This document shows, piece by piece, positions 27,516-43,403 of a stretch of 64,000 nt of DNA; the first letter of the stretch is position 1, and each line of letters opens with the position of its first letter. The stretch spans positions 5,056,501 to 5,120,500 of the forward strand of contig NZ_OY764327.1 in NCBI RefSeq assembly GCF_963668385.1. Direction: 5' to 3'. The notes below the pieces were generated by a model, which saw only the letters and a program-made list of their open reading frames with translations, was not told the DNA's origin and searched no databases. A program made the translations under genes and the position numbers. Source of the DNA: an uncultured Carboxylicivirga sp. Its GTDB lineage: Bacteria; Bacteroidota; Bacteroidia; Bacteroidales; Marinilabiliaceae.

Positions 27516-28490
27516 CTAAAAATACCTGATAGAGCGCATGGCACCTCCATCCTCATCCAGCTTCTTTCTCTTCTTCCGAAACATTCTGTCCCGATTTCTT
27601 CTCAGCATTTTATTTGAATCAAAACTTAATGTAATCTCATGGCTTCCTTTGGAAATACCCTCAGGAGCGGTTGATAAATCGTATGAATAATGCATACTTA
27701 CATAATCACTTATACGAAAGCCCCCAACAAATGCAACAGCAGTATTAATTCTATAGGATACTCCAACGGAGAAAAGCTCTTTATACAACAATTGTACATT
27801 GGCATCAATACTATACATGCCATTTTCGATAAAACGTGCCAAGGTCGATGGTTTTAAATAGAACTCTTTATTAATGGAAAAACCATATCCGGTTGAGATA
27901 TAATAATGACGTTTAACTTCTGAAATGATTTGATCAGAATCTTTACTTTTAAAATACGAATCGATTACCTGAGGTACCGAAAATCCGAAATAAAAATTAG
28001 GAGTATATAAAAACGCTCCAGCTCCCACATTTGGCTTAAAACTATTTTGCGAAGCCCCCACGAAATTAGGATCTTCAGGATCAATCACCTTCCAATCATC
28101 CCCTTTAAAACCATAATGATTGGCGATGGCAGTAACCCCCATCGACAAAAACATATTATAGCGTAGACGCACCAAATAGGAATAATAAAAATTAAACCTA
28201 TTATTTTGAACAGGCCCCACCTGATAAGAATTTAATGCACCACCTAACGAAACCATTGATTTATTTAATGGAGAGTGAATGGATACATTATAATTTACCG
28301 GTGCCCCGTCTAAGCCCATCCACTGATGCCGCGCCATTAAATTAACCGAAAATGCATTTCGAACCCCGGCATAACCCGGATTAATCATTAATTGCGAATG
28401 CATATATTGGGTAGACAAAGGCTCGAGTTGAGCCATCACTTTCGCCGAAAGAATACAAAGCAGAAATAGTATGTATGTTTTTTTACTCAT
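27516..28490 (-). CDS. PorP/SprF family T9SS membrane protein (third pair)
   Basis: Predicted outer-membrane protein of 324 residues. Signal peptide MSKKTYILFLLCILSAKVMA, then the family opening LEPLSTQYMHSQLMINPGYAG, ARHQWMGLDGAPVNYNVSIH and repeated barrel strands (FNFYYSYLVRLRYNMFLSMG, YYISTGYGFSINKEFYLKPS). A basic tail rich in Arg and Lys ends the protein. PorP/SprF proteins work with the T9SS to bring type B CTD proteins such as SprB to the surface. It starts directly at the end of the type B surface-protein gene (28491-29447), which it probably serves. It is clearly more distant from the two other PorP proteins here than they are from each other. Confidence 0.9.
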   Translation of the reverse strand: MSKKTYILFLLCILSAKVMAQLEPLSTQYMHSQLMINPGYAGVRNAFSVNLMARHQWMGLDGAPVNYNVSIHSPLNKSMVSLGGALNSYQVGPVQNNRFNFYYSYLVRLRYNMFLSMGVTAIANHYGFKGDDWKVIDPEDPNFVGASQNSFKPNVGAGAFLYTPNFYFGFSVPQVIDSYFKSKDSDQIISEVKRHYYISTGYGFSINKEFYLKPSTLARFIENGMYSIDANVQLLYKELFSVGVSYRINTAVAFVGGFRISDYVSMHYSYDLSTAPEGISKGSHEITLSFDSNKMLRRNRDRMFRKKRKKLDEDGGAMRSIRYF

Positions 28491-29447
28491 TTATCTGCTT
28501 AAATAGATGTATCCGGTTAATGGCTTACTAATGCCTGAAATAGTAAATACATAATAATAGGTGCCACTTGGAACAGGCTTTCCTTTTAATGAACCCGTAT
28601 TAGCTGCTCCATCCCAATTATTTTGATAATTACTGTTACTATATACTGTTTGTCCCCACTCGTTAAAAACAGTTAATTGCATATTGGTAAACATACGAAA
28701 GTCGGGAACATAAAACGTATCGTTGAAACCATCTCCATTAGGCGAAAAGCCATTGGGTATATAAAAATCAGATTCTCCATCATACTGGACATCGATAAAC
28801 ACCCAGGCTTCATCGCAATCATTATCAGCATCACAAAGAGAATATTGTAAAGAATCTATTCCTCCAAAATTACGAGGAAAAACAGGCACTAATTCATTAT
28901 TTTCGTTTAAATAGGATTCACCTTCGGTAAAATCCTGCATAATAGATACAGTAAATGGAAAGTCGCCAATAATAGTATCATTTTCGAGAATATTATAAAC
29001 AGGATCTGTACCGTGTTTATATACCACTGTATCGTTAACGGCAACTGGAACATAATCTACATCTTCAATACGCACGTCAACACGAGCTACATCACACGAC
29101 CCATTTGTATTACAAACTTGATAAATAAATTGATCGGTACCATGGTATCCTGGCTCCGGAGTATACTGGATAGTATTATCTTCATTGACGCTAACTATAC
29201 CATGTTGCGGTTCTGTATCGATAGCTAATGAACCAACGCCATTGTTTAATCCCAGATCATTATTCAGAACGTTAACACTTACTGTCTGACTTTCATTTAC
29301 AATGGCAAAATCGTTGTAGGCAACAACAGTATAGTCTGCTAATGTGCTTACATTCAGATTTTCTTCATCATTATTTTGTGCAGACAATGATAGCCCAAAA
29401 ATAAAAAAGACAATTAATAAGAGATGTATTTTAATGTGCCCCTTCAC
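28491..29447 (-). CDS. Surface protein with cadherin-like repeats and T9SS type B sorting domain
   Basis: A 318-residue exported protein starting at GTG. After the signal peptide (to about residue 23) come two Ig/cadherin-like repeats of the 'VNVLNNDLG' and 'YNILENDTI' type with GYHGTDQFIYQVCN and FGGIDSLQYSLCD strands. From about residue 230 it has the gliding-motility-associated C-terminal domain: IPNGFSPNGDGFNDTFYVPD, then FNEWGQTVYSN, then GTYYYVFTISG. The protein is thus a small secreted type B T9SS substrate. Its PorP partner follows with no gap. A perfect promoter lies 26-56 bp upstream. Confidence 0.9.
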   Translation of the reverse strand: MKGHIKIHLLLIVFFIFGLSLSAQNNDEENLNVSTLADYTVVAYNDFAIVNESQTVSVNVLNNDLGLNNGVGSLAIDTEPQHGIVSVNEDNTIQYTPEPGYHGTDQFIYQVCNTNGSCDVARVDVRIEDVDYVPVAVNDTVVYKHGTDPVYNILENDTIIGDFPFTVSIMQDFTEGESYLNENNELVPVFPRNFGGIDSLQYSLCDADNDCDEAWVFIDVQYDGESDFYIPNGFSPNGDGFNDTFYVPDFRMFTNMQLTVFNEWGQTVYSNSNYQNNWDGAANTGSLKGKPVPSGTYYYVFTISGISKPLTGYIYLSR

Positions 29448-29561: not shown

Positions 29562-30572
29562 CTAATAACCTATAAACTGATAATTTGATTTTTTATTGTG
29601 TCGGATTTTAGAACAAGGGATAGCCCCTTTACTTTTATCACGACAAATACGATAACTGAGTATTAATTGATAATTACTACCATAATCGAGCTGTGCAGTA
29701 GTTAACCCAAGCTGATACTCTAAACCAAGACTAAACTGCTGATAAACGACTCCACCTGTAACAGCTGCTCCTAAACTCTTACCAAACTGACTGTCGACCG
29801 TATGCCTGTATGCCACTAATCCCCAAATAGCCCAATCGGGATTGGGTGTTGGCAGGTATGCTTTTAAGTTTAAGTCTAATCTACTATCATTTAATATGTT
29901 TTTACGAAGCATAAAAGTTGGTTCCAAGTACATATCTCTGTCTGCCACTTTAAAACTTCCACCTGCATGCAAGTTATAATCCAAAACCCTTTTGGGTTCG
30001 TATATTGAATTATACATTGGATTATTTTCCGGCAATAGATTAGTCATTGCAAAACCAATGTGCATTTCATTGTATTTTAAGACTACTCCCGTACTGGCAT
30101 TTACACCAAAACCATTTTCGCCTGCTCCGGTTATAATAGGATCAAAAACACCTCCATCTACCAGATTTGACATATCAAGTGAAGTTTGTTCCAATAGAAA
30201 TGATAATCCGAAAGAAAGCGTCATCACCTTTTTTCGCTTTTTTAGTAATAATATCTCATATGAGAAAGCCTGATTTAGTCCCATCTCTTTATAATTACCA
30301 TTCCTGTCATTATAAACATAGGTTCCTGAGCCCATTTGACCTGTTACAGGCATTTGAAAACTCAATATTTGAGTAGTAGGAGCTAATTCTGTTCCAAACC
30401 ACTGTTTCTGATAGAAACCATTTATAGTAATGCAATTCTTCTGAAAAGCAGCTGCTGATGGATTCACCTGAAACAGATCATATATATACTGATTTGTCAG
30501 ATAGTATTTTTGTGCATTAACCACAGTTAGGGTAATGGTAAGGCCTAATACTATTGAGAGTAGTTTCTTCAT
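29562..30572 (-). CDS. PorP/SprF family T9SS membrane protein (second pair)
   Basis: A 336-residue outer-membrane barrel with signal peptide MKKLLSIVLGLTITLTVVNA. Family marks are YDLFQVNPSAAAFQKNCITI near the N-terminus, INGFYQKQWFG, GSGTYVYNDRNG and the C-terminal YQLGLTTAQLDYGSNYQLIL. A basic tail with CRDKSKGAIPCSKIRHNKK carries a cysteine pair also kept in the paralogue at 35455-36465. The two paralogues agree over almost their full length, while their DNA differs at many third positions, so the duplication is not recent. The start codon overlaps the end of the 1536-residue surface-protein gene by four bases, which suggests translational coupling and a dedicated partner. Confidence 0.92.
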   Translation of the reverse strand: MKKLLSIVLGLTITLTVVNAQKYYLTNQYIYDLFQVNPSAAAFQKNCITINGFYQKQWFGTELAPTTQILSFQMPVTGQMGSGTYVYNDRNGNYKEMGLNQAFSYEILLLKKRKKVMTLSFGLSFLLEQTSLDMSNLVDGGVFDPIITGAGENGFGVNASTGVVLKYNEMHIGFAMTNLLPENNPMYNSIYEPKRVLDYNLHAGGSFKVADRDMYLEPTFMLRKNILNDSRLDLNLKAYLPTPNPDWAIWGLVAYRHTVDSQFGKSLGAAVTGGVVYQQFSLGLEYQLGLTTAQLDYGSNYQLILSYRICRDKSKGAIPCSKIRHNKKSNYQFIGY

Positions 30573-33500
30573 CGTTTTAAGGTTAAATTACCTTTAATAT
30601 ATTTCCCCGTTGGGTGTAATTCAATCACATACCAATAGTCATCTGATTTCATTGGTTTACCTAGATATTTACCATCCCAACCCGGATCAGAGGCTTTGTA
30701 TTTTATTAGTAATTTTCCATATCTATCATAAATTCGGATTTCGCTATCCGGAAGTCGATCTAAACCTTCAATAACCCAAGTATCATTATATCCATCATCA
30801 TTAGGAGTAAAAAACTTAGGAATATCAATATCGAGATAGTTATAAATATTAACGGTATCCAACGACATACATCCATTAGCATCTTCAACACATAAAATAT
30901 GTTCACCATTAGCGAGATTGCTAAACACATTGGATTCACCCAAAGAACCATTGTTTATTGCATACAGATAAGGTTGAGTACCGCCGTTGGCATACAATAC
31001 TACTTGGGCATAAATACTGGTATCTAAGCTAGCAACAACAGGTGTTGGATACACTTCGAGCTGCATGGTGTCTTTAATAATATGGCAACCATCAGAAACA
31101 CTAACCCAATACTCTCCGGCATTTTTCAACCATATTTCAGCTTCATGCTGTCCTGTGCTCCATTCAAGAACATATAAATCATGGTCAACTCCTATTAGTA
31201 AAGAATCGAAGTTACAAACCATGCTATCGTTTAGTAACTCCAGCTTAGGTTCGGCAAATTGTTTAACTAACTTGGTATCATATCCTGTACATCCAAATTC
31301 ATCTGTTACCACTACCCAATTAACTGTATCTACCAGATTTGCTTCGATGGATGGAGTTGTTTGTTGATTATGCCATAAATAACTTTGAAAAGGACCTCCC
31401 TCTGCAGTTATTATCGGCATTCCATCCAGAGGGCATATAAACTCATCAACACCCAAAGAAACATTTGGAGACCTTCGCCAACGAACTGACGCCTGAACAG
31501 TTGTATCACATCCATTGCCTGACGATACTGTTGCAGAATAAATTCCCTCTCTATCAGCACTAATGAAGTTGTTTGTTTCGCCTGTTGACCACAGATATGA
31601 ATAAGTGCCCCCATTTAAATTATCAACTTGCAGATCCACGATTTCAAAAGGACAAACCCATTCATCCTGGATACTAACCTTAGGTCGATGATTCACTATT
31701 ATATTAATCTCATCCTGAGCAGAACAACCAAAAGAATTAGTTACCTGAAGTTTATAGTTTCCACTTGCATCGAGGTATAACTTATTAGTATTTAATAATG
31801 GATTGTCATTCCACCTATAAATTGCATAATCAGAACTGGTTGCAACTTCGATGTATTCTCCAATGCATATTTGCTGATCGGGCCCTAAATCAAGAGTTGG
31901 TTCCGGATGAACCGTTACTACAACATTACCGGTAGCATCACAACCGTTTTTATCCGTTATATTTAATTTATAGGTACCTGATTTTAATGCTAAATAATCA
32001 GCATCGGTGGATTTAACCTCTTCCCCATCAGCACTTAAATAATTCCAGGTATACCCCTGTGCTGTCGAAACCGGATTCTGCAATAGAACACCCGTACTTT
32101 TACATTCTTCATATGGACCGCCTAAATTAATTTCTGTTGGTTGATAATAGGTAATGGTAACATCATCTTTTGCAACACATCCTAATGCATCAACAGCTGT
32201 GACACTATAGATTCCCGCTGAACTAACTATGAACTGAGCTGTTGTCCAATCACTATAACGCTGATTATTTGCATCATTCCAATATAAATAATCAAACACA
32301 TTTTCAGGGACTGATTGGAGGTAGTTTTGAATAGTCAGAACTTCTTGTCCTTCTTCGCACATAGAGTTCAGATCGGATAACTTTATTTGAGGAGCTAAAT
32401 ATTCATCTACTGTAATCTCATTAAACTTAACGCAACCTTTATATTCAGCCTCTACAATATATAATCCGCCATCACTTACCTGAATTATATTCTGATCGGA
32501 TGGCAACTGACTTAATGAAGTACCATCATGAGACCAACTATAACTATCATAACCCGAGGATGCAATAATTTCAATTTCTTGTCCTTCACATAGATTCTGA
32601 GTGGTGTATAATACAGGAGGATCCGTATCATAGAAATCAATCTTTACTTCGTCTTCAACCTCACAACCATTCATATCTATTACTTGCAAATGGTACACTC
32701 CACTATTCGACACCTTTCCTTCTTCAATTTTTAATTCATATTCAGGCGTTGGATTTAAATTGTGTACTGTTGAGCCATCATCCCAAGTCCACTCATAATT
32801 AGAATAATCAGAACTATTACTAATGCTTAAGGTAATACCAGCACACTCTGCCCTATCCGGACCTAAATCGATTGGAACCGGCATAACAAATTGCAAAGAG
32901 GCATCATCAGAAGCTATACAACCATTGTCATCGGTAACTTGTAAGCTATAAATTCCATCATTTGTTACAGACAAACTACTACCGTTTGAACCATTATTCC
33001 ACAAGTAGGAATAACCATTGCCTGTTGGACCTTCAAAAGTATAATCGTTGCCTGAACAAACAACCGCATCTTCTAATTCAAAAACCGGTAAATCATTTAC
33101 GGTAATTTGGAATGTTTCAGAAACTGAACACCCATCAAGAGTCCAGGCGGTTAACGTGTAACTACCAGAAGCTTCCGGAATAATATAGTTCTGCGATGGA
33201 TCGGTATTTAACACTCCTCCATTAAGAACCCATTCATAACGATCGAAATCGCTTGTATTAACCACAGAAGCTCCTATACATACAGTAGTTGTATTAAGAG
33301 TAATCTCAGGAACTACAAAAGACTCCACTATTGCTTCATCATTAGCTAAACAGCCAATATTATCGCTTACTTCTACTGAAATTGCAATGGTAGAACCTTC
33401 TGAGGCTGTTACCTGAGTAGACGATCCAGTTGCACCATTACTCCACGCATACGAAGAAAAACCAGAACCAGCATCAAAGGTTACCGTTTCGCCCGGGCAA

Positions 33501-35179
33501 ACGATTGTATCATTACCTAAATCAATTTCAGGTGCATTAAAATCAACTACAATACTATCTGTTTGAGTACAACCAGCATATTTTACTTCTGCTTCTACCC
33601 AATAAGTACCTGACTCACTAACATAAAAAGTTGGATCTTCTGAAAGGATATCACTGCCGGTAGCCAGCGAATACCATTTATAATTTTCCATATCAGTTCT
33701 TGCACTTAAGGCAACCTTTTCACCATAACATGCTTGAGAAGGACCATCAACCCAGAAATTATTAAAAGATGAAAAATAACCATAGCTTACACTTCCTGCC
33801 CCTGTGCTTGGATCGTTCTCATCAAGAATACTTAAATGAAACAAACCATCAACATTATCGGGTAATTCAATCGTATACACTTCAGATGTATTCAACATAT
33901 CGAAATTAGCAGCGATGGTTTTCCATTTCTCATTAATCCCTTGCATATTAACCACATTCCACATATTATTAGCAACAAGAGGTGTAGTTGATGTAATATC
34001 ATTCCCATCTTTATCTCTAACTATTAAAGCTTTAGCCACATCTTCTTCGGCCACAATATTAATCCAAAAATCACGAGTATAATTTCTGGTAAACGAAACA
34101 CTTCGGGATCCGGTACAATCAATAGAAGGTAAAATAGCACTACCAAACTCATTTCCTTTATTATTAGCATCGGCATTAACCAATCCTGCTACCTGATATA
34201 CATAAATGGGTTTAGGAGAAGTTATATAAGCATTCTGACTTGATAAATCGAAACTATATAATTCTCCTGCATCAATGGTTGTTGCCACTTGAACGGTGTT
34301 ATTGACAAATACATGTGTATTGTCTTCCACGGCCATGATGAAAATTTTATTAATATTGTTTTGATGATTATTTGAATTTGGAGCTTTACTGGTATTTACC
34401 ACCACATAAGAATATCCAATCACACTAATAGGTATCAACTGGTCTCCAATTAAATCTCGCGGATGATCATATTTTTCTAGTTCATATATGGAATCATCAG
34501 AAATTGTAACCGCAATTCTTTTATTCGCATTAATTTTTGTGCCTGCCAGAGAACCTCCAGGTGAAATATCACGACATTCGATACAATATGTTTGAGCTCG
34601 GTTTAATGTTATTGTATATTCTTCGCCGGCTTTATGTCCGGTAATATCTACTGAAGGAATAATAGAAATCTCGGTATTATCTTCAGTTGCAACTATATCT
34701 GCTTTTTCATTTGCATCATTATTAGCATATGGCCAGTTAGCGAATAAATTTTGTGATGGCACCATAAAATCTAACCCCAAAGCGTTATAGCCCTTAAGGG
34801 TAAATTTATCAGGGTTACCATCATCAGCCACCTCATAGTAAACCGAAATATCTTCTGTTGAAGTAATTAATATACCTTTATTATTAATTGCATCGGCTGG
34901 ATAATTTTCAACGTCATGTTTATTAAGTACATAATTATCGTGGGTATACTTACCGTAATTCAATACCACATCTGAGAAACCTGAATTTGAGGGCATTGAA
35001 ATAGTTATGGTTGCAGGATTTGCAAAAGTAGTAAAACGTAATACCACAGGTTCGTCGCCATGCTGATCAGTTACTTCCGGAGCTACAAACCAAAACTCCT
35101 TACCAACTTGTGCATTTACGATTAAGCTCATGCTAAATAACAAAGAGCTCAAATAACTAATGAGTAGAAGTCTTTTCAT
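30569..35179 (-). CDS. Large multi-domain T9SS type B surface protein (1536 aa)
   Basis: Predicted adhesin-like surface protein. A signal peptide (to about residue 23) is followed by an IgGFc-binding-like N-terminal region (about 24-465; VGKEFWFVAPEVTDQHGDEP, then DISVYYEVADDGNPDKFTLK). About twelve Ig/PKD-like domains of 70-86 residues follow, each with a DLG..D..C.G opening and a final GC (YSLQVTDDNGC). Then comes one SprB-like repeat and the type B sorting domain (FFTPNDDGYNDTWVIEGLDR, IRIYDRYGKLLIKY). Residues 701-1096 form a five-domain module that occurs once here and three times in the paralogue at 36462-43403. Secreted through the T9SS; ligand unknown. IgG binding is not implied by the domain name. 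Confidence 0.9.
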   Translation of the reverse strand: MKRLLLISYLSSLLFSMSLIVNAQVGKEFWFVAPEVTDQHGDEPVVLRFTTFANPATITISMPSNSGFSDVVLNYGKYTHDNYVLNKHDVENYPADAINNKGILITSTEDISVYYEVADDGNPDKFTLKGYNALGLDFMVPSQNLFANWPYANNDANEKADIVATEDNTEISIIPSVDITGHKAGEEYTITLNRAQTYCIECRDISPGGSLAGTKINANKRIAVTISDDSIYELEKYDHPRDLIGDQLIPISVIGYSYVVVNTSKAPNSNNHQNNINKIFIMAVEDNTHVFVNNTVQVATTIDAGELYSFDLSSQNAYITSPKPIYVYQVAGLVNADANNKGNEFGSAILPSIDCTGSRSVSFTRNYTRDFWINIVAEEDVAKALIVRDKDGNDITSTTPLVANNMWNVVNMQGINEKWKTIAANFDMLNTSEVYTIELPDNVDGLFHLSILDENDPSTGAGSVSYGYFSSFNNFWVDGPSQACYGEKVALSARTDMENYKWYSLATGSDILSEDPTFYVSESGTYWVEAEVKYAGCTQTDSIVVDFNAPEIDLGNDTIVCPGETVTFDAGSGFSSYAWSNGATGSSTQVTASEGSTIAISVEVSDNIGCLANDEAIVESFVVPEITLNTTTVCIGASVVNTSDFDRYEWVLNGGVLNTDPSQNYIIPEASGSYTLTAWTLDGCSVSETFQITVNDLPVFELEDAVVCSGNDYTFEGPTGNGYSYLWNNGSNGSSLSVTNDGIYSLQVTDDNGCIASDDASLQFVMPVPIDLGPDRAECAGITLSISNSSDYSNYEWTWDDGSTVHNLNPTPEYELKIEEGKVSNSGVYHLQVIDMNGCEVEDEVKIDFYDTDPPVLYTTQNLCEGQEIEIIASSGYDSYSWSHDGTSLSQLPSDQNIIQVSDGGLYIVEAEYKGCVKFNEITVDEYLAPQIKLSDLNSMCEEGQEVLTIQNYLQSVPENVFDYLYWNDANNQRYSDWTTAQFIVSSAGIYSVTAVDALGCVAKDDVTITYYQPTEINLGGPYEECKSTGVLLQNPVSTAQGYTWNYLSADGEEVKSTDADYLALKSGTYKLNITDKNGCDATGNVVVTVHPEPTLDLGPDQQICIGEYIEVATSSDYAIYRWNDNPLLNTNKLYLDASGNYKLQVTNSFGCSAQDEINIIVNHRPKVSIQDEWVCPFEIVDLQVDNLNGGTYSYLWSTGETNNFISADREGIYSATVSSGNGCDTTVQASVRWRRSPNVSLGVDEFICPLDGMPIITAEGGPFQSYLWHNQQTTPSIEANLVDTVNWVVVTDEFGCTGYDTKLVKQFAEPKLELLNDSMVCNFDSLLIGVDHDLYVLEWSTGQHEAEIWLKNAGEYWVSVSDGCHIIKDTMQLEVYPTPVVASLDTSIYAQVVLYANGGTQPYLYAINNGSLGESNVFSNLANGEHILCVEDANGCMSLDTVNIYNYLDIDIPKFFTPNDDGYNDTWVIEGLDRLPDSEIRIYDRYGKLLIKYKASDPGWDGKYLGKPMKSDDYWYVIELHPTGKYIKGNLTLKR

Positions 35180-35454: not shown

Positions 35455-36465
35455 CTAGTAGCCCAGGAATTTGTAGTTATACTTTTTACTATTGCGAATT
35501 TTTGAACAAGGTATTGCTTTAGCCTTTTTATTACGGCAAATTCTATAACTACATACTAATTGATAATTGCTTCCATAATCGAGTTGTGCCTGTGTTAAAC
35601 CCAATTGATATTCTAAACCAATACTAAACTGCTGATAAACGACTCCTCCTGTAACAGCCATACCTAAACTTTTTCCCAATTCGCTATCGGCAGTGTGTCT
35701 GTATGCCAATAATCCCCAAACAGACCAATCGGGATTAGGAGTTGGCATATATATTTTAACATTCATATCCATTCTGCTATCCGTCAATGTGTTTTTCCGA
35801 AACATAAAGAGAGGTTCAAGATATAAGTCTCGATCTGCAACCTTAAAACTACCCCCTGCATGAAACTGCATATCTGCAACTCTGGAAGGCTCATAAACAG
35901 ATTGATACAAAGGATTATTTTCAGGAAGAATATCTGTTATAGCAAATCCAACATGAATATCGTTATATTTTAACAATACTCCAGTACTGGCATTAAATCC
36001 AAATCCATTCTCACCAGCACCAGGAATAGCCGGATCATAGATACCATCACCAACAAAATCTCGTTGATCAACCGATGACTGCTCTAAAACAAATGCTAAA
36101 CCAAAAGAAAGAGTCATCACCTTTTTTCTTTTTTTGAGTAATAATATTTCGTAAGAAAATGCCTGATTTAGACCAAACTCGCGATGATATCCATTCTGGT
36201 CATTATAAACATATGTACCAGAACCCAATTGACCTGTTACAGGTGCTTGAAAACTTACAATTTGAGTTGATGGAGACATATCGGTTCCAAACCATTGTTT
36301 CTGATAAAAACCATTTATGGTTATACAATTTTTTTGAAAAGCAGCAGCAGATGGATTCATCTGAAACAAATCATATACATACTGATTAGTCAGATAATAT
36401 TTTTGCGCTGATGCTCCCCAAAAAGTCAACATCAGTATTACTAATAATGACACCCAATACTTCAT
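35455..36465 (-). CDS. PorP/SprF family T9SS membrane protein (first pair)
   Basis: Paralogue of the 29562-30572 product and equal in length (336 residues). It has a signal peptide ending at GASA, then QKYYLTNQYVYDLFQMNPSA, INGFYQKQWFGTDMSPSTQI, and the basic C-terminal tail with ICRNKKAKAIPCSKIRNSKK. Long stretches such as AFSYEILLLKKRKKVMTLSF are the same in both. Four bases overlap the end of the giant surface-protein gene, so the pair is translationally coupled. Role: probably outer-membrane partner for surface display of that protein. The 275-bp stretch between its stop codon and the next gene (35180-35454) shows a -7-like TAAGTTTG (35278-35285, minus) but no clear terminator. Confidence 0.92.
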   Translation of the reverse strand: MKYWVSLLVILMLTFWGASAQKYYLTNQYVYDLFQMNPSAAAFQKNCITINGFYQKQWFGTDMSPSTQIVSFQAPVTGQLGSGTYVYNDQNGYHREFGLNQAFSYEILLLKKRKKVMTLSFGLAFVLEQSSVDQRDFVGDGIYDPAIPGAGENGFGFNASTGVLLKYNDIHVGFAITDILPENNPLYQSVYEPSRVADMQFHAGGSFKVADRDLYLEPLFMFRKNTLTDSRMDMNVKIYMPTPNPDWSVWGLLAYRHTADSELGKSLGMAVTGGVVYQQFSIGLEYQLGLTQAQLDYGSNYQLVCSYRICRNKKAKAIPCSKIRNSKKYNYKFLGY

Positions 36466-39400
36466 CGAACTATACTTACATTTCCTTTCAATAATTTATT
36501 TACGGGTATCAATTCTATTACATACCAATAATCATCTGATCGGACCGGTTTGCCCAAATATTTACCATCCCATCCCGGGTCGCTCGCAAGGTATTTGATT
36601 AGCAATTTTCCGTAACGATCATATATTCGTATCTCACTATCGGGTAACCTATCCAAACCTTCAATCTCCCAGGTATCGTTATATCCATCTCCATTAGGAG
36701 TAAAAAACTTAGGAATATTAATATCCAGGTAATTATTGATATTCACCGTATCGGTTGCCATGCAACCATTAACATCAATTACATTTAGTATATGCTCTCC
36801 GTCTGCAAGATCTGAAAATACATTCTTCTCTTGGTAACTCTCATCATTGATTGAATATTCATAAGGTTCTGTGCCACCTTCGACATACAATACAACCTGC
36901 GCATAAATACTGGTGTCTAAACTTGCAACCATTGGAGTTGGCACCACCACCATTTGCATAGTATCAGCCATTATAAAACAACCATCATCGGCATTTACCC
37001 AATATTCACCTGCTTCTTTTATCCATATTTCGGGGTAGTGTTCTCCGGTACTCCAAACTATATTATTTAAATCCCAGTCTACTTCCAACATCAAAGAATC
37101 AGAACTACATATAGATGTGTCGTTTAATAACTCCAAGTCTTCACTTTCCAGATATCTGACCACTTTGGTATCAAATCCTCTACATCCATTTTCATCAATT
37201 ACCGATACTACATTAACAGTATCAGCCATTTCAGCCATTATAGAACGCGTTTGCAAACCATTTTGCCATTGATATGTACTAAATTCGCCAGCATCTAATT
37301 CTATTGAACCTTCAACAGGACAGATATATTCGTCTTCTCCTAAGTCAACCACCGGAGAAGCATAATAATTAACATTAATAGTATCGATACTACTACAACC
37401 ATTAGCATCTGTTACTTTTAGATTATGTGAGCCTCCTGCAAGCAAAACAGTTTGATCAACTGATCCATTTGACCATAGATAAGATTCAAATCCAGCAGGT
37501 GCAACTACGGTATGCATTACTCCAGGACATTCTGAAACATCAGGACCTAAATCAAGGTGTGGCAATTCCAATACAGTAATATTTGTAGAGTCAGCATCCA
37601 CACAACCATATACATTAGCTACCTCCACTTTGTACTTACCAGCAGATGTCACTTTTAATTGATTGGTATTTAAAGATGCATCATCATTCCATTTATAACT
37701 CACATAATTATCTCCTGGTGTGATGAATAAATAATCCTGATCACACATCATTCTATCATCACCCAAATCAACATCTGGTGATGGATTAAGGATTACAACA
37801 GTAGTAGCATCTTTGACACATCCGTGCTCATCGGTAAGTGTTAATCGATAACTACCTGCCTCTTCTACCAAATAATCTTCATCTGTCGCTAATTGAGTAT
37901 CATCTTGATAAGTAAGTTTACTCCAAGTGTAAGTTCTGTAATTTACTTCTTCAACCGAAAGTAACTGGCCTGCATTATCACAATTTGTAAAAGTCTCTGG
38001 CAAGGTAAGTGGAGTAACTTCATGCTCGGTAATTGAAATATCATCTGTTGCCACACACCCTAAGGTATCAACCACTGTAACGGAATAATCACCAATACCG
38101 GGAACCTGACATCGGGCAGTTTGCCACGATCCATAGCGCTGATTACTTTCATTATTCCAGTATAGATAATCAAATACATTCTCCTCACTCCCTTTAGTAT
38201 AGCTATCTATTCCGAAAGAAGATGGTGAACCAGGGCATATAGCAAAATCATCAGGTAATTTTACACTTGGTAAAGCATACTTTTCAATATCAAGTGTATT
38301 TGATTTACTACAACCATACAATTCAACTTCAACCGTGTATGCACCTCCTTCGGTAACTGAAATGGTTGACATATTATCAAACTGTCCCATTGATACTCCG
38401 TCTTTGCTCCAACTAAACTGGTCAAAACCAAGCGAAGCATTAAGGTCAACAGATTCTCCGGAACATAAATATTTAGATGCACTCAATTCAGGTACTGGAA
38501 TATCATGAACTAATACATCAACCTCATCTTCCACTGGACAACCATTAAGATCATTAGCAATAGCTTTATAAGTACCAATGTTGCCAAGTTGCACATTCGA
38601 TACTGTAAATATACTTTCTACCGAAGGTGTAGATTCTGTTTGATTATTAAAATACCACGAATAATTAGTATGAGCATTACTAGCTTGTAGAACTAATTCA
38701 TCTCCGGCGCATAACTCTTTATCATCACCTAAATCAAATGCTACAGGACTATAATTTGTTAAGGTAAATTCCGTCATTCCAACACACCCGTTATTATCGG
38801 TAACTGTAAGTGAATACTGACCAGGAACACTCGTTGTAAAAGTAGATGCATTAGATCCTTCACTCCATAAATATTGATATGGCTGATCTGTAGGTCCATT
38901 AAACAACCCTGAATTACCAGGACAAACAGTATTATCTGCCACTGTAATTTCGGGAGCCATATTGATATTTACATCAGTAGAACCTTGGCTATCACAACCA
39001 TTTTTATCTTCCACATAAATCTTGTACTTACCTTGAATAGTTGCAAGATAATCTTCATCATTGCCAACATTTACTTCATCAGTGCCATCAGACCAATACC
39101 AAGAATATGACAAGGCATCAATAATTGGATTTTGTAATGTTATTCCAATATTATTACAGGCAGTAAACGGTCCTTTTAAATCTGGTGTTTCTACGGTATG
39201 TTCTGTAATCTCAATGTCATCCGTTGCTTTACATCCAACCTGATCAACAACTGTTACACTATAGATACCAGGTGCTGTTGCTTGATAAGTTGCTGTTGCC
39301 CAATCGGCCGATCGAATATTCTCATCATTGTTCCAATATAAATAATCAAAGCCATTACCATCAGCTGATTGTGAATACGATACTCCTGATATAGTGGTTT

Positions 39401-42400
39401 CTGCCCCCGGACAGATTGCATAATCTGATGGCAGAGTAACCGATGGCAGACCATGTTTATCAACATCTGTATGAGTTATTTTTATACAACCTCCAAATTG
39501 TGCTTTTACAGAATATCGTCCTTCAGCATCAACATCTTTCAAAATTCGATCCGTTGCTCCACTAATTTCAACACCGTTAAATGACCATTGGTAGCTAGAA
39601 TAGGTATTAGATGCAATTAAATCAATTGTCTCGCCCTTACATAGATTCTCAGTCATCGTAACATCCAAAGGATTGGTATTAAGAAAGGTAACCTCCACCT
39701 GACCACTACTTGGACAACCATTTACATCAATAGCTTCAGCTAAATATGTTCCGGAGTCACTTACCTTTGAATCAGAAATTATATAAATATTTTCAATTGC
39801 TGGTGTAGTAAGACCAATTTCACCGCTTCCATCATCAAATTTCCAACTATAGGAAGTAAATTTACTATCTCCTTCAATACTAAAATCAATACCTGCACAC
39901 TGCTCTCCACCTTGTCCTAAATCAATTGGTTGCACAGTGTAATTAATTAATCTAGCTGATTTCGTTTCAGTACATCCTTTGTCATCAGTAACAACTAAGG
40001 TATGTTGACCTGTAATGGATGTGGTAAGAGAAGCACTTGCTGATCCATCGCTCCATTGATAATTAGTGATATTACCTACCACATTTTGAGGCGCAAAAGT
40101 ATGATCATCACCCGGACAAACTACCCCATCATTTAGATCAAACGAAGGGTTCTGATTGATGGTAATATTAACATCATTGGTGTTTTGACAACCATTTACA
40201 TCAACAATTTCAAGTTTATAAGTTCCGGTTTGAGTGGCTAAGAAATCTTTATTACTAGCAATTTCAAACTCAGTACCTCCCACTATTCTATACCATTTAT
40301 AACTATTTACCGGACTTACAGGATTCTGCAATAGGAAACCATCTGCACTACAAGCTTCATCATCAACCAAAGGAATTTGTGTTGGAGTATACTCTGCCAC
40401 ATCCATTTGATCTGTAGCAATACATCCATATTCATCAACTACTGTAACCGTATAAGTGCCGGCAGTATTTACATTTAGAGAAGCAGTTGTCCAATCATTC
40501 TGTTTATTACCAGAATCTGTTCCCCAATACATATAATCAAAATCCCCACCATCAACAGATGGTGTATATGAAGCAACTGTTAATACAGCCTCGTCTCCCG
40601 GACAAAATGCCATATCAGATGGCAATGCAACAGAAGGAGTACCATATTGATGTATGGTTACACTGTTACTGGTAACACATTTATCGTAATTAACCTCAAC
40701 AGTATATGTACCTGGTTGGCTAATTTCAATTGATCGCTGCCCATTAAATTGACTTTGTATGGATCCATTGTAATACCATCTGTAATTACTATAACCAACA
40801 GAGGCTGTAATAATAGTAGTCGCTCCCGCACATAAACTATCCTGAACAGTTAGTTGAGGAGGATCGAAAAATAGGAAACTAACATTTACCGAATCTTTTG
40901 TAGCACAACCATTAATATCTAATCCTTCGACCTTATACAAGCCTTCGTTAGAACCATCTGTTTTAGCTACCAAATATTGATATTCGTTTGGAGTACCTGT
41001 TATACCGGTTTCGGTTCCTCCTTTAATAAAAGTCCATTTGTAATCACTAAAATCTGCATAATTGGCAACTGTAAGTAAAGCATCATCACAATCTTCTCTA
41101 TCGGCACCTAAATCCATTGGAATAGGCAAATTATAATTTAAATAAGCAGAATCTTTTGCAGAGCAGCCTTCGGCATCGGTAACAATTAACCAATATTTTC
41201 CTTCATCTTTTAAATCAATGTATGATTGAGTACTACCATCATTCCACTGGTACGTATAACCATTGCCTGTAGGTCCATAGATTCTTTTGCTTTCACCAAT
41301 ACAAGTTACCTCATCTTGTAAATCGATGGTAATTGGATTAATTATGTCAATTTGAAATGTTTTAGTTGCTTCACATCCATCTTCTGTCCAACCTGTAATT
41401 GTATACTGTCCGGATACAGTTGGCTTCAAATAATTTTGTAATGGATCTGTATTTAAAACCTCTCCATTCAAGCTCCATTCGTAACGAGCAAAAGTATTGG
41501 TAACATTTACTGCTTGTCCCAGGCAAACCTGAGTTTTATCTAAATTAATTTCAGGAACACTAAAGGCCTGAATATTTACAGTGTCTTTATTAGAACACCC
41601 TTCAGCATCAGTAACCAATACTGATAAATCCTGATTATAATTAGCCGTAACATTAACACTTGTTTGCGATCCGGTAGTTCCATCACTCCATAAATAAGTA
41701 TAAGAAGTATCATAACCCGAAAAGTCTATTGTTGAAGGTGCACACACGATAGTATCCGGCCCTAGCTCAATCTCAGGGCGATTAAAAACAACATCAATAC
41801 TATCCTGAAGTTCACATTCTCCTAACTCCAAAGTTGCCCTAACCCAGTATTTTCCACCTTCGGTAACATACAAATCTCTTTCAGTAGATAAAATGGTATC
41901 ACCTTTACTTAGCGAATACCATTTATATGTATCCATGGGTACATCGGTTGTTAAACGAAGTGTATTTCCATAACACACATCAGTAAGCCCACTGATTTTA
42001 AGATTACTATATGAAGAAAAATACCCATAACTAGCACTTGTATTATTCTGCTCCAACACACTTAGGTGAAACATACCAACAGAATTGGAAATTGTTACTG
42101 GAGAACCCGTACCCATATCTGTACTTAGGTTTACATTGGTAGTATACCAGGCTTCATCACCTGTGCCTGTGCCAGGTACAATAACCCAATCGGCACTTGC
42201 AAGGAAATTACCAATTGCATTACCTGAAGAATTCTTACCTTCCACGCTAAAGCTATTACGTGCATTACCTTTTACCAGTACCTGCATATATAATTTGTAG
42301 GTAAAAATTCGGGTAAAACTTACTGATGTTGAACCAGTACATTCCACATGGGGTAATAAAGCACTACCTAACTCATCTCCATTGGCAAAATTTAAGCTTG

Positions 42401-43403
42401 ATAGTTGATACACATAAACAGGATTGCTCGCTTGAATAAACATATTATCGCCTGTAATATCTATACACTTTTGCTCTCCTTTATTTAAAACAGCTTCTAA
42501 GCTCGAATTTCCATTAATTCTTATTTGCGTATTATCTTGTGTAGCTAATACAAATACTTTATTGATAGGATAAATGACGTTACCACTCCAGTCTTTTTTC
42601 AGCTCATTTTCGTCAGGCTGTGTATTAACTGCAACATATTCGTATCCAATAACATTGGTAGGAATTAATTGATCACCAATTAAATCCCAGGCTCCATTCC
42701 CACTCCATGTTGGATTTACCGAATCATCTGATATAGTTATAGCAACTTGTTTATTGGATGACAAATAAGTACCGGCCATTGATGACTCTTTAGTTTCATC
42801 AGAATTTACAATAGAGTATGTTTCCCCCCGATTCAATGTAATTTCAACTTCTTGTCCTTTACTCCACGACCCTACTGCAATAGAAGGAATAACTTTCACA
42901 ACCGTCCCATCTTCAGTAGCAACAATATCAATTTTTTCTGTCGCAGGAGTACTGTAATGGTTATTCATATAGATATTTTGAGAAGGAACCCAAAATTCAG
43001 TGCCTAAGGCATTATTCCCTTTTAAGGTAAATTTATCAGGATTATTTGCATGAACCACTTCATAATAAACACTAATATCCTTATCCGAAGTAATTAATAT
43101 ACCTTTATTATTGATTTGAAATTCAGGTCGATTTTCTAAATCATTTGGCGAATAACCACTAACAGTGTAAAGAGTATTAGGTGCAATATATACGTTTGTT
43201 GTACTAAAACTACCATTTGCCGGGCTTGAAATGGTAACATTAGCACCTTCATCAAAAGTAGTAATCCTAAAAACCACAGGACTATCTCCGTGATTATTGG
43301 TCACTTCCGGAGCAACAAACCAGAATTCTTTTCCAACTTGGGCTTTTAATTCAACGAAGACACTTAGCAAAATAATGCTAATAGTTAAGGTTAAGTATTT
43401 CAT
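36462..43403 (-). CDS. Giant repetitive T9SS type B surface protein (2313 aa)
   Basis: The largest gene here. Layout matches the 1536-residue paralogue: signal peptide (to about residue 21), IgGFc-binding-like N-terminal region, three Ig/PKD-like domains, then a five-domain module in three tandem copies (residues 694-1088, 1089-1486 and 1487-1878), then about four more Ig/PKD-like domains, one SprB-like repeat and a type B sorting domain (FFTPNGDGYNDTWEIEGLDR). Each module ends with a long domain containing DYLYWN and one containing LQNP or a close variant. Flanking regions before (693 against 700 residues) and after (435 against 440) are nearly equal in the two paralogues, so the length difference is two modules. 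Predicted surface adhesin or filament; ligand unknown. Confidence 0.9.
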   Translation of the reverse strand: MKYLTLTISIILLSVFVELKAQVGKEFWFVAPEVTNNHGDSPVVFRITTFDEGANVTISSPANGSFSTTNVYIAPNTLYTVSGYSPNDLENRPEFQINNKGILITSDKDISVYYEVVHANNPDKFTLKGNNALGTEFWVPSQNIYMNNHYSTPATEKIDIVATEDGTVVKVIPSIAVGSWSKGQEVEITLNRGETYSIVNSDETKESSMAGTYLSSNKQVAITISDDSVNPTWSGNGAWDLIGDQLIPTNVIGYEYVAVNTQPDENELKKDWSGNVIYPINKVFVLATQDNTQIRINGNSSLEAVLNKGEQKCIDITGDNMFIQASNPVYVYQLSSLNFANGDELGSALLPHVECTGSTSVSFTRIFTYKLYMQVLVKGNARNSFSVEGKNSSGNAIGNFLASADWVIVPGTGTGDEAWYTTNVNLSTDMGTGSPVTISNSVGMFHLSVLEQNNTSASYGYFSSYSNLKISGLTDVCYGNTLRLTTDVPMDTYKWYSLSKGDTILSTERDLYVTEGGKYWVRATLELGECELQDSIDVVFNRPEIELGPDTIVCAPSTIDFSGYDTSYTYLWSDGTTGSQTSVNVTANYNQDLSVLVTDAEGCSNKDTVNIQAFSVPEINLDKTQVCLGQAVNVTNTFARYEWSLNGEVLNTDPLQNYLKPTVSGQYTITGWTEDGCEATKTFQIDIINPITIDLQDEVTCIGESKRIYGPTGNGYTYQWNDGSTQSYIDLKDEGKYWLIVTDAEGCSAKDSAYLNYNLPIPMDLGADREDCDDALLTVANYADFSDYKWTFIKGGTETGITGTPNEYQYLVAKTDGSNEGLYKVEGLDINGCATKDSVNVSFLFFDPPQLTVQDSLCAGATTIITASVGYSNYRWYYNGSIQSQFNGQRSIEISQPGTYTVEVNYDKCVTSNSVTIHQYGTPSVALPSDMAFCPGDEAVLTVASYTPSVDGGDFDYMYWGTDSGNKQNDWTTASLNVNTAGTYTVTVVDEYGCIATDQMDVAEYTPTQIPLVDDEACSADGFLLQNPVSPVNSYKWYRIVGGTEFEIASNKDFLATQTGTYKLEIVDVNGCQNTNDVNITINQNPSFDLNDGVVCPGDDHTFAPQNVVGNITNYQWSDGSASASLTTSITGQHTLVVTDDKGCTETKSARLINYTVQPIDLGQGGEQCAGIDFSIEGDSKFTSYSWKFDDGSGEIGLTTPAIENIYIISDSKVSDSGTYLAEAIDVNGCPSSGQVEVTFLNTNPLDVTMTENLCKGETIDLIASNTYSSYQWSFNGVEISGATDRILKDVDAEGRYSVKAQFGGCIKITHTDVDKHGLPSVTLPSDYAICPGAETTISGVSYSQSADGNGFDYLYWNNDENIRSADWATATYQATAPGIYSVTVVDQVGCKATDDIEITEHTVETPDLKGPFTACNNIGITLQNPIIDALSYSWYWSDGTDEVNVGNDEDYLATIQGKYKIYVEDKNGCDSQGSTDVNINMAPEITVADNTVCPGNSGLFNGPTDQPYQYLWSEGSNASTFTTSVPGQYSLTVTDNNGCVGMTEFTLTNYSPVAFDLGDDKELCAGDELVLQASNAHTNYSWYFNNQTESTPSVESIFTVSNVQLGNIGTYKAIANDLNGCPVEDEVDVLVHDIPVPELSASKYLCSGESVDLNASLGFDQFSWSKDGVSMGQFDNMSTISVTEGGAYTVEVELYGCSKSNTLDIEKYALPSVKLPDDFAICPGSPSSFGIDSYTKGSEENVFDYLYWNNESNQRYGSWQTARCQVPGIGDYSVTVVDTLGCVATDDISITEHEVTPLTLPETFTNCDNAGQLLSVEEVNYRTYTWSKLTYQDDTQLATDEDYLVEEAGSYRLTLTDEHGCVKDATTVVILNPSPDVDLGDDRMMCDQDYLFITPGDNYVSYKWNDDASLNTNQLKVTSAGKYKVEVANVYGCVDADSTNITVLELPHLDLGPDVSECPGVMHTVVAPAGFESYLWSNGSVDQTVLLAGGSHNLKVTDANGCSSIDTINVNYYASPVVDLGEDEYICPVEGSIELDAGEFSTYQWQNGLQTRSIMAEMADTVNVVSVIDENGCRGFDTKVVRYLESEDLELLNDTSICSSDSLMLEVDWDLNNIVWSTGEHYPEIWIKEAGEYWVNADDGCFIMADTMQMVVVPTPMVASLDTSIYAQVVLYVEGGTEPYEYSINDESYQEKNVFSDLADGEHILNVIDVNGCMATDTVNINNYLDINIPKFFTPNGDGYNDTWEIEGLDRLPDSEIRIYDRYGKLLIKYLASDPGWDGKYLGKPVRSDDYWYVIELIPVNKLLKGNVSIVR
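37770..41324 (-). repeat. Three tandem copies of a 1.18-1.19 kb coding module
   Basis: Inside the 2313-residue gene, module starts fall at 41324, 40139 and 38945, and the third ends at 37770. Copies are 395, 398 and 392 codons. Each encodes five Ig/PKD-like domains in the same order. The copies are well diverged in sequence, so the expansion is old. The homologous single copy in the 1536-residue gene covers 33079 to 31892 (396 codons). Confidence 0.8.

Follow-up and report, generated by a model that had tools for sequence, protein, structure and literature searches.

A five-domain block present three times and once in the stalks of two tandem Bacteroidota surface proteins

How did two surface-protein genes standing in tandem in a Bacteroidota genome come to encode stalks of which one has two more copies of a five-domain block than the other? 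The genes lie in the window, a stretch of 64,000 nucleotides from an uncultured Carboxylicivirga sp. (contig NZ_OY764327.1), as open reading frames of 2313 and 1536 amino acids at 36462-43403 and 30569-35179, both on the minus strand (Table 1). The block consists of five Ig-like domains, A-B-C-D-E, of about 395 residues in all. A first-pass annotation had counted three such modules in the long protein and one in the short protein, and our own boundaries, 2 to 3 residues off the earlier ones, bear out this count. The flanks proved nearly equal, as claimed there, with 690 and 698 residues before the modules and 437 and 442 after them, and, counted in residues, the two extra modules explain why the proteins are unequal in length. 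From tip to domain R the long protein has 22 Ig-like domains and the short protein 12.

Table 1. Positions in the window of the parts of the two surface proteins and their carriers.
Feature	Position	Strand	Evidence
Long protein tip: signal-like start (by eye) and IgGFc-binding-type N-terminal region, residues 1-471	41991..43403	-	PF17517 match; model
Long protein Ig-like domains N1-N3, residues 472-690	41334..41990	-	own profiles; Pfam Ig_7 at 474-534
Long protein module 1 (A-B-C-D-E), residues 691-1086	40146..41333	-	self-comparison, own profiles, register test, model
Long protein module 2 (A-B-C-D-E), residues 1087-1484	38952..40145	-	self-comparison, own profiles, register test
Long protein module 3 (A-B-C-D-E), residues 1485-1876	37776..38951	-	self-comparison, own profiles, register test
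Long protein Ig-like domains F1-F4, residues 1877-2157	36933..37775	-	own profiles
Long protein domain R ahead of the sorting signal, residues 2158-2227	36723..36932	-	own profiles; Pfam PF06832 at 2147-2221
Long protein T9SS type B C-terminal sorting domain and stop	36462..36722	-	TIGR04131; PF13585
PorP/SprF-family carrier of the long protein, paired C-tail cysteines	35455..36465	-	PF11751, TIGR03519, tail inspection
Short protein tip: signal-like start (by eye) and IgGFc-binding-type region, residues 1-478	33746..35179	-	PF17517
Short protein Ig-like domains N1-N3, residues 479-698	33086..33745	-	own profiles
Short protein single module A-B-C-D-E, residues 699-1094, probably fused ends of a three-module array	31898..33085	-	own profiles, block and domain trees
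Short protein Ig-like domains F1-F4, residues 1095-1380	31040..31897	-	own profiles
Short protein domain R and T9SS type B sorting domain	30569..31039	-	TIGR04131
PorP/SprF-family carrier of the short protein, paired C-tail cysteines	29562..30572	-	Pfam profile search, tail inspection

Both tips belong to the PF17517 family, with 112.9 bits for the long and 138.3 for the short protein against the curated Pfam cut-off of 25.6; this membership does not imply IgG binding. The model of the long protein tip has a pLDDT of 88.7 and a pTM of 0.90. The C-terminal domains score 99.6 (long) and 107 bits (short) with TIGR04131, above its cut-off of 35. Judged by these profile matches, both proteins are T9SS type B substrates with an IgGFc-binding-type N-terminus. 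The stop of the long protein overlaps its PorP/SprF carrier gene by 4 bases, as does the end of the short gene with its own carrier, and neighbour genes around the locus are conserved in relatives. With the TIGR04131 domain, the adjoining carrier gene and a large repetitive surface protein, the arrangement resembles SprB-SprF, from which it differs in the IgGFc-binding-type tip and the Ig stalk. A third carrier gene lies in the window at 27516-28490.

The pairing with a carrier is common in the family. Among 48 genes that have a readable end and eight or more recognised domains (L039, which runs off its contig, was left out), 47 have a PorP/SprF carrier downstream, its open frame starting within 60 bases in 46, and 46 of the 47 partner carriers have at least two cysteines in the tail. 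A C-X7-11-C motif was found in 47 of 48 carriers of the window type versus none of 39 of the neighbouring type, 14 of which have some cysteine within the last 60 residues. The C-X-C of SprF occurs in none of the 48 carriers of the window type, whose tail cysteines are instead about nine residues apart. Eight loci that are further removed but share the tip (L059, L060, L065-L070) gave no match to the window's carriers at 1e-10. The GldK and GldJ genes of this genome score above cut-off, and the paired tail cysteines suggest, by analogy with SprF, that the assembly may be tied to the moving GldK track.

Is the five-domain block a real unit? With Pfam alone, some domains pass the cut-offs and others do not, and the division into five comes from our own profiles together with the structural model. 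Self-comparison of the long protein gave main offsets of 392, 397 and 789, and comparison of the long with the short protein gave 7, -777, -782 and -390. For the 20 module domains, same-letter domains fill the three best-scoring partner places in 59 of 60 cases. The best-offset score was 42985 (offset 394). None of 200 shuffles of domain order reached it (mean 12904, maximum 27479), and the highest score among 100 residue shuffles was 1292. Modelled with AlphaFold, residues 691-1158, which cover one module and the A domain that follows it, reach a mean pLDDT of 92.8 and a pTM of 0.58; the model consists of strands nearly throughout and finds proteins made of Ig-like domains as its top structural matches. 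The periodicity of about 395 residues is therefore present, and equal similarity out of register, named beforehand as the refuting outcome, was not seen; the in-register similarity upholds the earlier view that the unit is five domains rather than one. That the copies are old rather than fresh products of slippage has likewise held. The modules are 34-40% identical at the protein level, at least 60% of residues differing, Tandem Repeats Finder detected no tandem array in the DNA, and the longest exact DNA word common to the modules of the long gene is 18 bases, or 20 with the module of the short gene.

Stalk repeat number varies among species of one genus: 17 of the 20 complete genus genes have one block, three have three and none has two. 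The exact one-block order was found in 22 of the 66 proteins scanned. Blocks of 2, 3, 4 or 6 domains have been multiplied as well in the wider family, across which five is not a fixed unit. This pattern suggests that such stalks may grow and shrink by whole blocks, with the tip exchanged separately.

The separate history of the tip emerges from trees of tips and anchors (18 proteins). For the tip plus N1-N3, a single clade of the four proteins from the window's genome (G000), G006 and G001 was rejected (p 1.5e-4), and in the flank tree, covering the 42 of 66 proteins with complete recognised ends, the G001 protein adjoins the short protein, apart from the long one. From F2 to the end, by contrast, the same four proteins group together (94/95) and a grouping by tip type 2 was rejected (p 9.7e-4). 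The N3, F1F2 and R-T trees (16 proteins), each alone, gave no resolution. By these trees, the ancestry of the tip differs from that of the stalk and anchor, with two tip types on one kind of stalk and anchor, so the two proteins would differ in more than stalk length. A possible alternative, which we consider weaker, is that the tips mark the true lineages and that gene conversion between the tandem paralogues, rather than import of a tip, made stalk and anchor alike. The genes are indeed tandem neighbours here, and the last 183 residues of the two proteins are 76.5% identical versus 39-48% elsewhere. However, the locus contains a single gene in G001 and likewise in G006, and the type-1 tips agree with the species clade whereas those of type 2 go with other genus members, a pattern that tip import fits at least as well.

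We then turn to the tripled array, using a block tree of 24 of the 37 blocks and, for the short-block placement and the single domains, trees of 19. Block copies sort by position across three genomes, so the block was most likely tripled once. The species tree, here a single gene (aconitase, midpoint root), unites G000, G006 and G001 in one clade (100/99) beside G002 and G004, matching the spread of the tripled form. The block of the short protein groups within or next to the tripled blocks (98/97), and grouping the blocks of G001 with it was not rejected (p 0.138). With p values uncorrected and many placements tried, its D-E part joins the third block of G001, each of the eight alternative placements being rejected (p 0.044 or less), and for its domain A the best placement is with G001's first block, six of the eight alternatives being rejected (p 0.0385 or less). 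The signal is not uniform: A-B and A-B-C together have no clear preference for the first block, and domain B prefers the L044 group. A free tree built from D only puts the third block of G001 with the L044 group (80) and not with the short protein, and the domain B tree unites first and third blocks from different proteins (100), in conflict with the other domain trees. The single block of the short protein nevertheless resembles a first block fused to a third, and this chimeric appearance implies that the short protein probably shrank from a longer array.

Simple lengthening, in which the ancestral single block persists in the short protein and the long one alone gained two after tandem gene duplication, seems unlikely to us. 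One block is the commonest state, the short block, when placed as a unit, finds its best position basal to the tripled ones (m1, m3, the third block of G001 and the L044 group were not rejected), and a clade of the nine tripled blocks without it was not rejected (p 0.42). Yet the G001 protein, whose tip is sister to that of the short protein, has three blocks, each grouping with the long protein's block at the corresponding position, and the D-E part rejects the basal placement (p 0.013, uncorrected). The earlier proposal of lengthening by whole five-domain units thus stands for the unit, but the short neighbour seems not to be an unexpanded ancestral form.

The nearest solved relative of the stalk is the grappling-hook protein GhpA of Aureispira (PDB 9flp and seven more entries), matched at E 1.4e-104 over seven Ig stretches and the C-terminal domain, in keeping with homologous Ig-like stalk domains. 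GhpA has 5898 residues compared with 2313 in the long protein, and the window protein's tip has no match in it. The block size could be set by quaternary register, if only whole blocks kept the strands of multi-stranded, GhpA-like filaments aligned. We regard this as improbable: block sizes of 2, 3, 4, 5 and 6 domains occur within one family, and another protein of the same genome, L148, is far closer to GhpA (1019 bits versus 354 and 394.5 for the window proteins).

Other comparisons concern the repeats themselves. As described in PMC8201768, Periscope Proteins share with the window proteins a tandem-domain stalk whose copy number differs between relatives and a projected N-terminal domain (presumed for ours). 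They are defined there by long, highly similar DNA repeats, and with a five-domain unit at 34-40% protein identity, no detected array and shared words of 18-20 bases, the window proteins fall outside that definition. Multi-domain duplication as treated in PMC1553488 has the same internal similarity pattern, with duplication in mid-array; Ig domains are described there as expanding mostly singly, with weak peaks at two, in contrast to blocks of 2 to 6 here.

Two independent triplings of the same block, in the long-protein lineage and in the G001 protein, appear improbable. The flank tree places the G001 protein away from the long one, and other lineages multiplied other blocks independently. 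However, the second blocks of all three tripled proteins form one clade (98/97), and clades of the three G001 blocks (p 0.045), of the six blocks of the long protein and G006 (p 0.024) and of the long protein's own three blocks (p 2.8e-5) were rejected. Chance, generic Ig similarity or an assembly artefact has negligible weight as an explanation of the repeats: out-of-register domains are weakly alike (mean scores 35 to 50), but the register test and shuffles oppose chance, the blocks differ at 60% or more of residues, two other genomes have this array as well, and the window genome is one contig.

Taken as a whole, the reading we favour as probable is that of type B surface proteins with their own carriers, a rod built block-wise, one tripling, a later collapse and a separate tip. 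The C-terminus would stay bound to the carrier in the outer membrane, as PMC9143113 suggests for SprB and PG1035, which carriers would retain on the surface after secretion, and the N-terminal region would therefore lie at the far end of the rod. It is reasonable to suppose that module number sets the reach of the tip. The rod would evolve as complete multi-domain blocks are multiplied or lost: the five-domain block would have become three copies, most likely once, in an ancestor shared by this genome, G001 and G006, and in the short protein recombination between first and third copies would later have collapsed the array to one block, the tip evolving apart from the stalk. By analogy with SprF, the carrier tail cysteines would link the assembly to the moving GldK track, and the assembly itself may move. 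A fuller version is doubtful in our judgment: a cassette-built gliding adhesin of exchangeable tip, stalk and anchor, with a block-wise stalk and a carrier covalently tied through its cysteines to the GldK track, so that short and long versions with different tips would ride on one belt per cell.

Within the family there is a natural series, largely from a single locus, of stalks set apart from one another by complete blocks of 3, 4, 5 or 6 Ig-like domains, with a tip that varies on its own. Such a series lets one ask how much reach a surface protein needs, and whether block size reflects selection or chance. The carrier tail cysteines make the recent model of a carrier disulfide-bound to the gliding track testable outside Flavobacterium.

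According to Pfam and NCBIfam, both large proteins have an IgGFc-binding-type N-terminal region (the tip), several Ig-like domains and a sorting domain for type IX secretion (type B). Our own domain profiles, seeded with the two window proteins and widened with relatives, gave one domain order for both: tip, N1 N2 N3, A-B-C-D-E, F1 F2 F3 F4, R and T, with three A-B-C-D-E blocks in the long protein and one in the short protein, the copy numbers reported by the first-pass annotation. The Pfam match of domain R had an E value of 1.2e-28 over the whole long protein, with residues 2147-2221 as its best stretch.

Genes and features of the surface-protein locus in the window
Feature	Position	Strand	Product	Remark
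Long-protein gene	36462-43403	minus	2313 aa	
Domain R of long protein	36723-36932			PF06832 (penicillin-binding protein C-terminus), an unexpected name here
PorP/SprF-family gene of long protein	35455-36465			4-base overlap with large gene
Short-protein gene	30569-35179	minus	1536 aa	Same row as long-protein gene
PorP/SprF-family gene of short protein	29562-30572			4-base overlap with large gene
Third pair	27516-29447		318-aa Big_9/cadherin-like type B protein and its own PorP carrier	Same row

The long protein had been proposed to have grown in units of five domains, with copies too diverged for recent slippage. We examined whether periodicity was missing or domains resembled each other regardless of register, and neither was the case. 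Compared with itself, the long protein showed similarity peaks at offsets of 392, 397 and 789 residues; domains of the same letter had mean scores of 128 to 212 versus 35 to 50 for different letters, same-letter partners made up 59 of 60 among the three best, and none of 200 domain-order shuffles reached the real score. The multiplication of the five-domain block in this type B surface protein is real and also old: because the blocks are only 34-40% identical, form no DNA tandem array that we could find and share no exact DNA word longer than 20 bases, present-day slippage is unlikely. Growth of repeat proteins by several domains at once is known, with Ig domains mostly added singly in the study concerned (PMC1553488, excerpt). 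The diverged window copies contrast with Periscope Proteins (PMC8201768, excerpt).

We built a tree from 24 blocks. Three proteins are tripled: the long protein and its counterparts in the related genomes G006 and G001. Their second blocks formed one clade (supports 98/97), and their first blocks did so weakly (81/70). Constraining the third blocks to one clade fitted as well as the free tree. Forcing together the three blocks of the long protein was rejected (p 2.8e-5), as were the six blocks of the long protein and G006 (p 0.024) and the three of G001 (p 0.045); G001's three blocks together with that of the short protein were not rejected (p 0.138). Because the blocks cluster by position and own-protein groupings are rejected, their sequences most likely reflect a single tripling event. 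A midpoint-rooted aconitase tree, in which the window genome, G006 and G001 formed one clade (100/99) beside G002 and G004, agrees with a single origin there.

The single block of the short protein clustered with the tripled blocks (98/97), either within or next to them (a clade of the nine tripled blocks without it was not rejected, p 0.42). As a whole, it was best placed basally, with four other placements not rejected. We also placed its domains on a fixed backbone. D-E went with G001's third block, all eight alternatives being rejected (nominal p 0.044 or less), and A with G001's first block, where six of eight alternatives were rejected (all these p values are uncorrected for the many tests) and the first-block clade (p 0.25) and a basal position (p 0.088) were not. 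B preferred the group of locus L044, and no placement was favoured for C. In free single-domain trees, the short protein paired with G001's first block in A (90) and third block in E (93); in D, G001's third block grouped with the L044 group (80). The simplest reading of these placements is a probable collapse, in which a three-block array would have lost two blocks by recombination between first and third, with an additional exchange at B.

The gene parts differ in ancestry, since the tip-side and F2-to-end trees reject each other's groupings. On the tip side (tip and N1-N3), the long protein grouped with G006, G002 and G004 (100/100), and the partners of the short protein were G001, the L044 group and L047 (100/99). 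Here, uniting the four proteins from the window genome, G006 and G001 in one clade was rejected (p 1.5e-4). From F2 to the end, these four proteins came together (94/95), and the tip-side cluster around the short protein (G001, the L044 group and L047) was rejected (p 9.7e-4). Each tip half and N1N2, analysed separately, rejected the four-protein clade, F3F4 alone contained it (89/88), and N3, F1F2 and R-T taken singly favoured neither grouping. By these trees, the tip has a history separate from the rest: it may have been imported, or the stalk and anchor may have been converted. Three tip-bearing frames end without a stalk (L057, 764 aa; L052, 809 aa; L054, 591 aa), the first two also having N1-N3; these tip-only or broken genes are possible donors in tip exchange.

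The N-terminal 475-residue query matched 56 of 119 related genomes (E 1e-20), and the short-protein query 45 of 71 in the window's family (1e-30). We scanned 66 proteins, comprising 64 open frames with a tip-type N terminus from fetched loci and the two window proteins; in one (L072) no domain was recognised. Ignoring weak labels, 22 carried the block just once, with the domain order of the window proteins, and three had three A-E blocks: the long protein, L074 (G006) and L058 (G001). Among 20 complete genes in 14 genomes of the window's genus, 17 had one block, three had three and none had two. Other relatives multiplied other units, as judged visually on domain strings and offsets: A-D three times in L093 and L053, six-domain A-F1 three times in the 2460-aa L047 protein (G053; period 468/930), C-E three times in L088, N2-N3 four times in L054, and A-C and E-F2 twice each in L040, L043 and, with weaker labels, L094. 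In eight loci of more distant relatives from the same taxonomic order (L059, L060, L065-L070), a tip of this kind sits on stalks whose periods span one or two domains, about 80 and 175 residues.

A gene order of permease, glucosaminidase, deacetylase, large protein, PorP, small type B protein, PorP, GAPDH was complete in L058, L075 and L093, and held as far as flanks or matches extend in L074, L076, L087, L091, L092 and L097. In L044, L045, L046, L048 and L049, permease and GAPDH flank the large protein and its PorP, the remaining genes being absent; L095 differs in order. The large pair is double in the window and single in nine genus loci (those five, L058, L074, L075 and L076). Of 63 loci searched, 38 (hand count) had matches to both genes of the third pair close to the large gene, those in L043 on the opposite strand. 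Elsewhere in the window genome (L148:782-13273; G000:C1:4303781-4316272), a 4163-aa protein with a type B CTD and many PKD/Ig-like domains adjoins a PorP-family gene; at 1019 bits against the grappling-hook protein GhpA, it is a candidate for a protein of grappling-hook type.

SprF of Flavobacterium johnsoniae forms a disulfide bond with the track protein GldK through C-X-C cysteines in its tail, and cysteine number and spacing vary in PorG tails (PMC12635249, in part). Unlike SprF, carriers assigned by best match to the type of the two large-protein carriers have C-X7-11-C in the last 60 residues (47 of 48); among 39 carriers of the neighbouring type, none has the pair and 14 have some cysteine there. 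At least two cysteines about nine residues apart occur in the last 52 residues of 46 of 47 partner carriers, L097 having one; all these counts come from mutually related rows and are thus non-independent. Among 12 PorP-family proteins of the window genome, only the two carriers of the large proteins have the pair, two have one cysteine and eight none; the carrier of the 318-aa protein has a cysteine-free tail. The window's carriers had no match at 1e-10 in the eight more distant same-tip loci. GldK and GldJ were found above the cut-off, and by analogy the two large-protein carriers may ride the GldK track.

Type B proteins are thought to remain surface-bound to their own PorP-like carrier (PMC9143113, excerpt). 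With the sorting domain C-terminal, the N-terminal region would be the distal end of the Ig rod. One Ig domain measures about 3.5 to 4 nm, and the reach gained from ten extra domains would come to some 35 to 40 nm. Beyond the repeat itself, the results comprise a short paralogue that has probably collapsed, a tip of separate ancestry, varied block sizes in the family and the carrier cysteine pairs; block number would fix how far the protein reaches.
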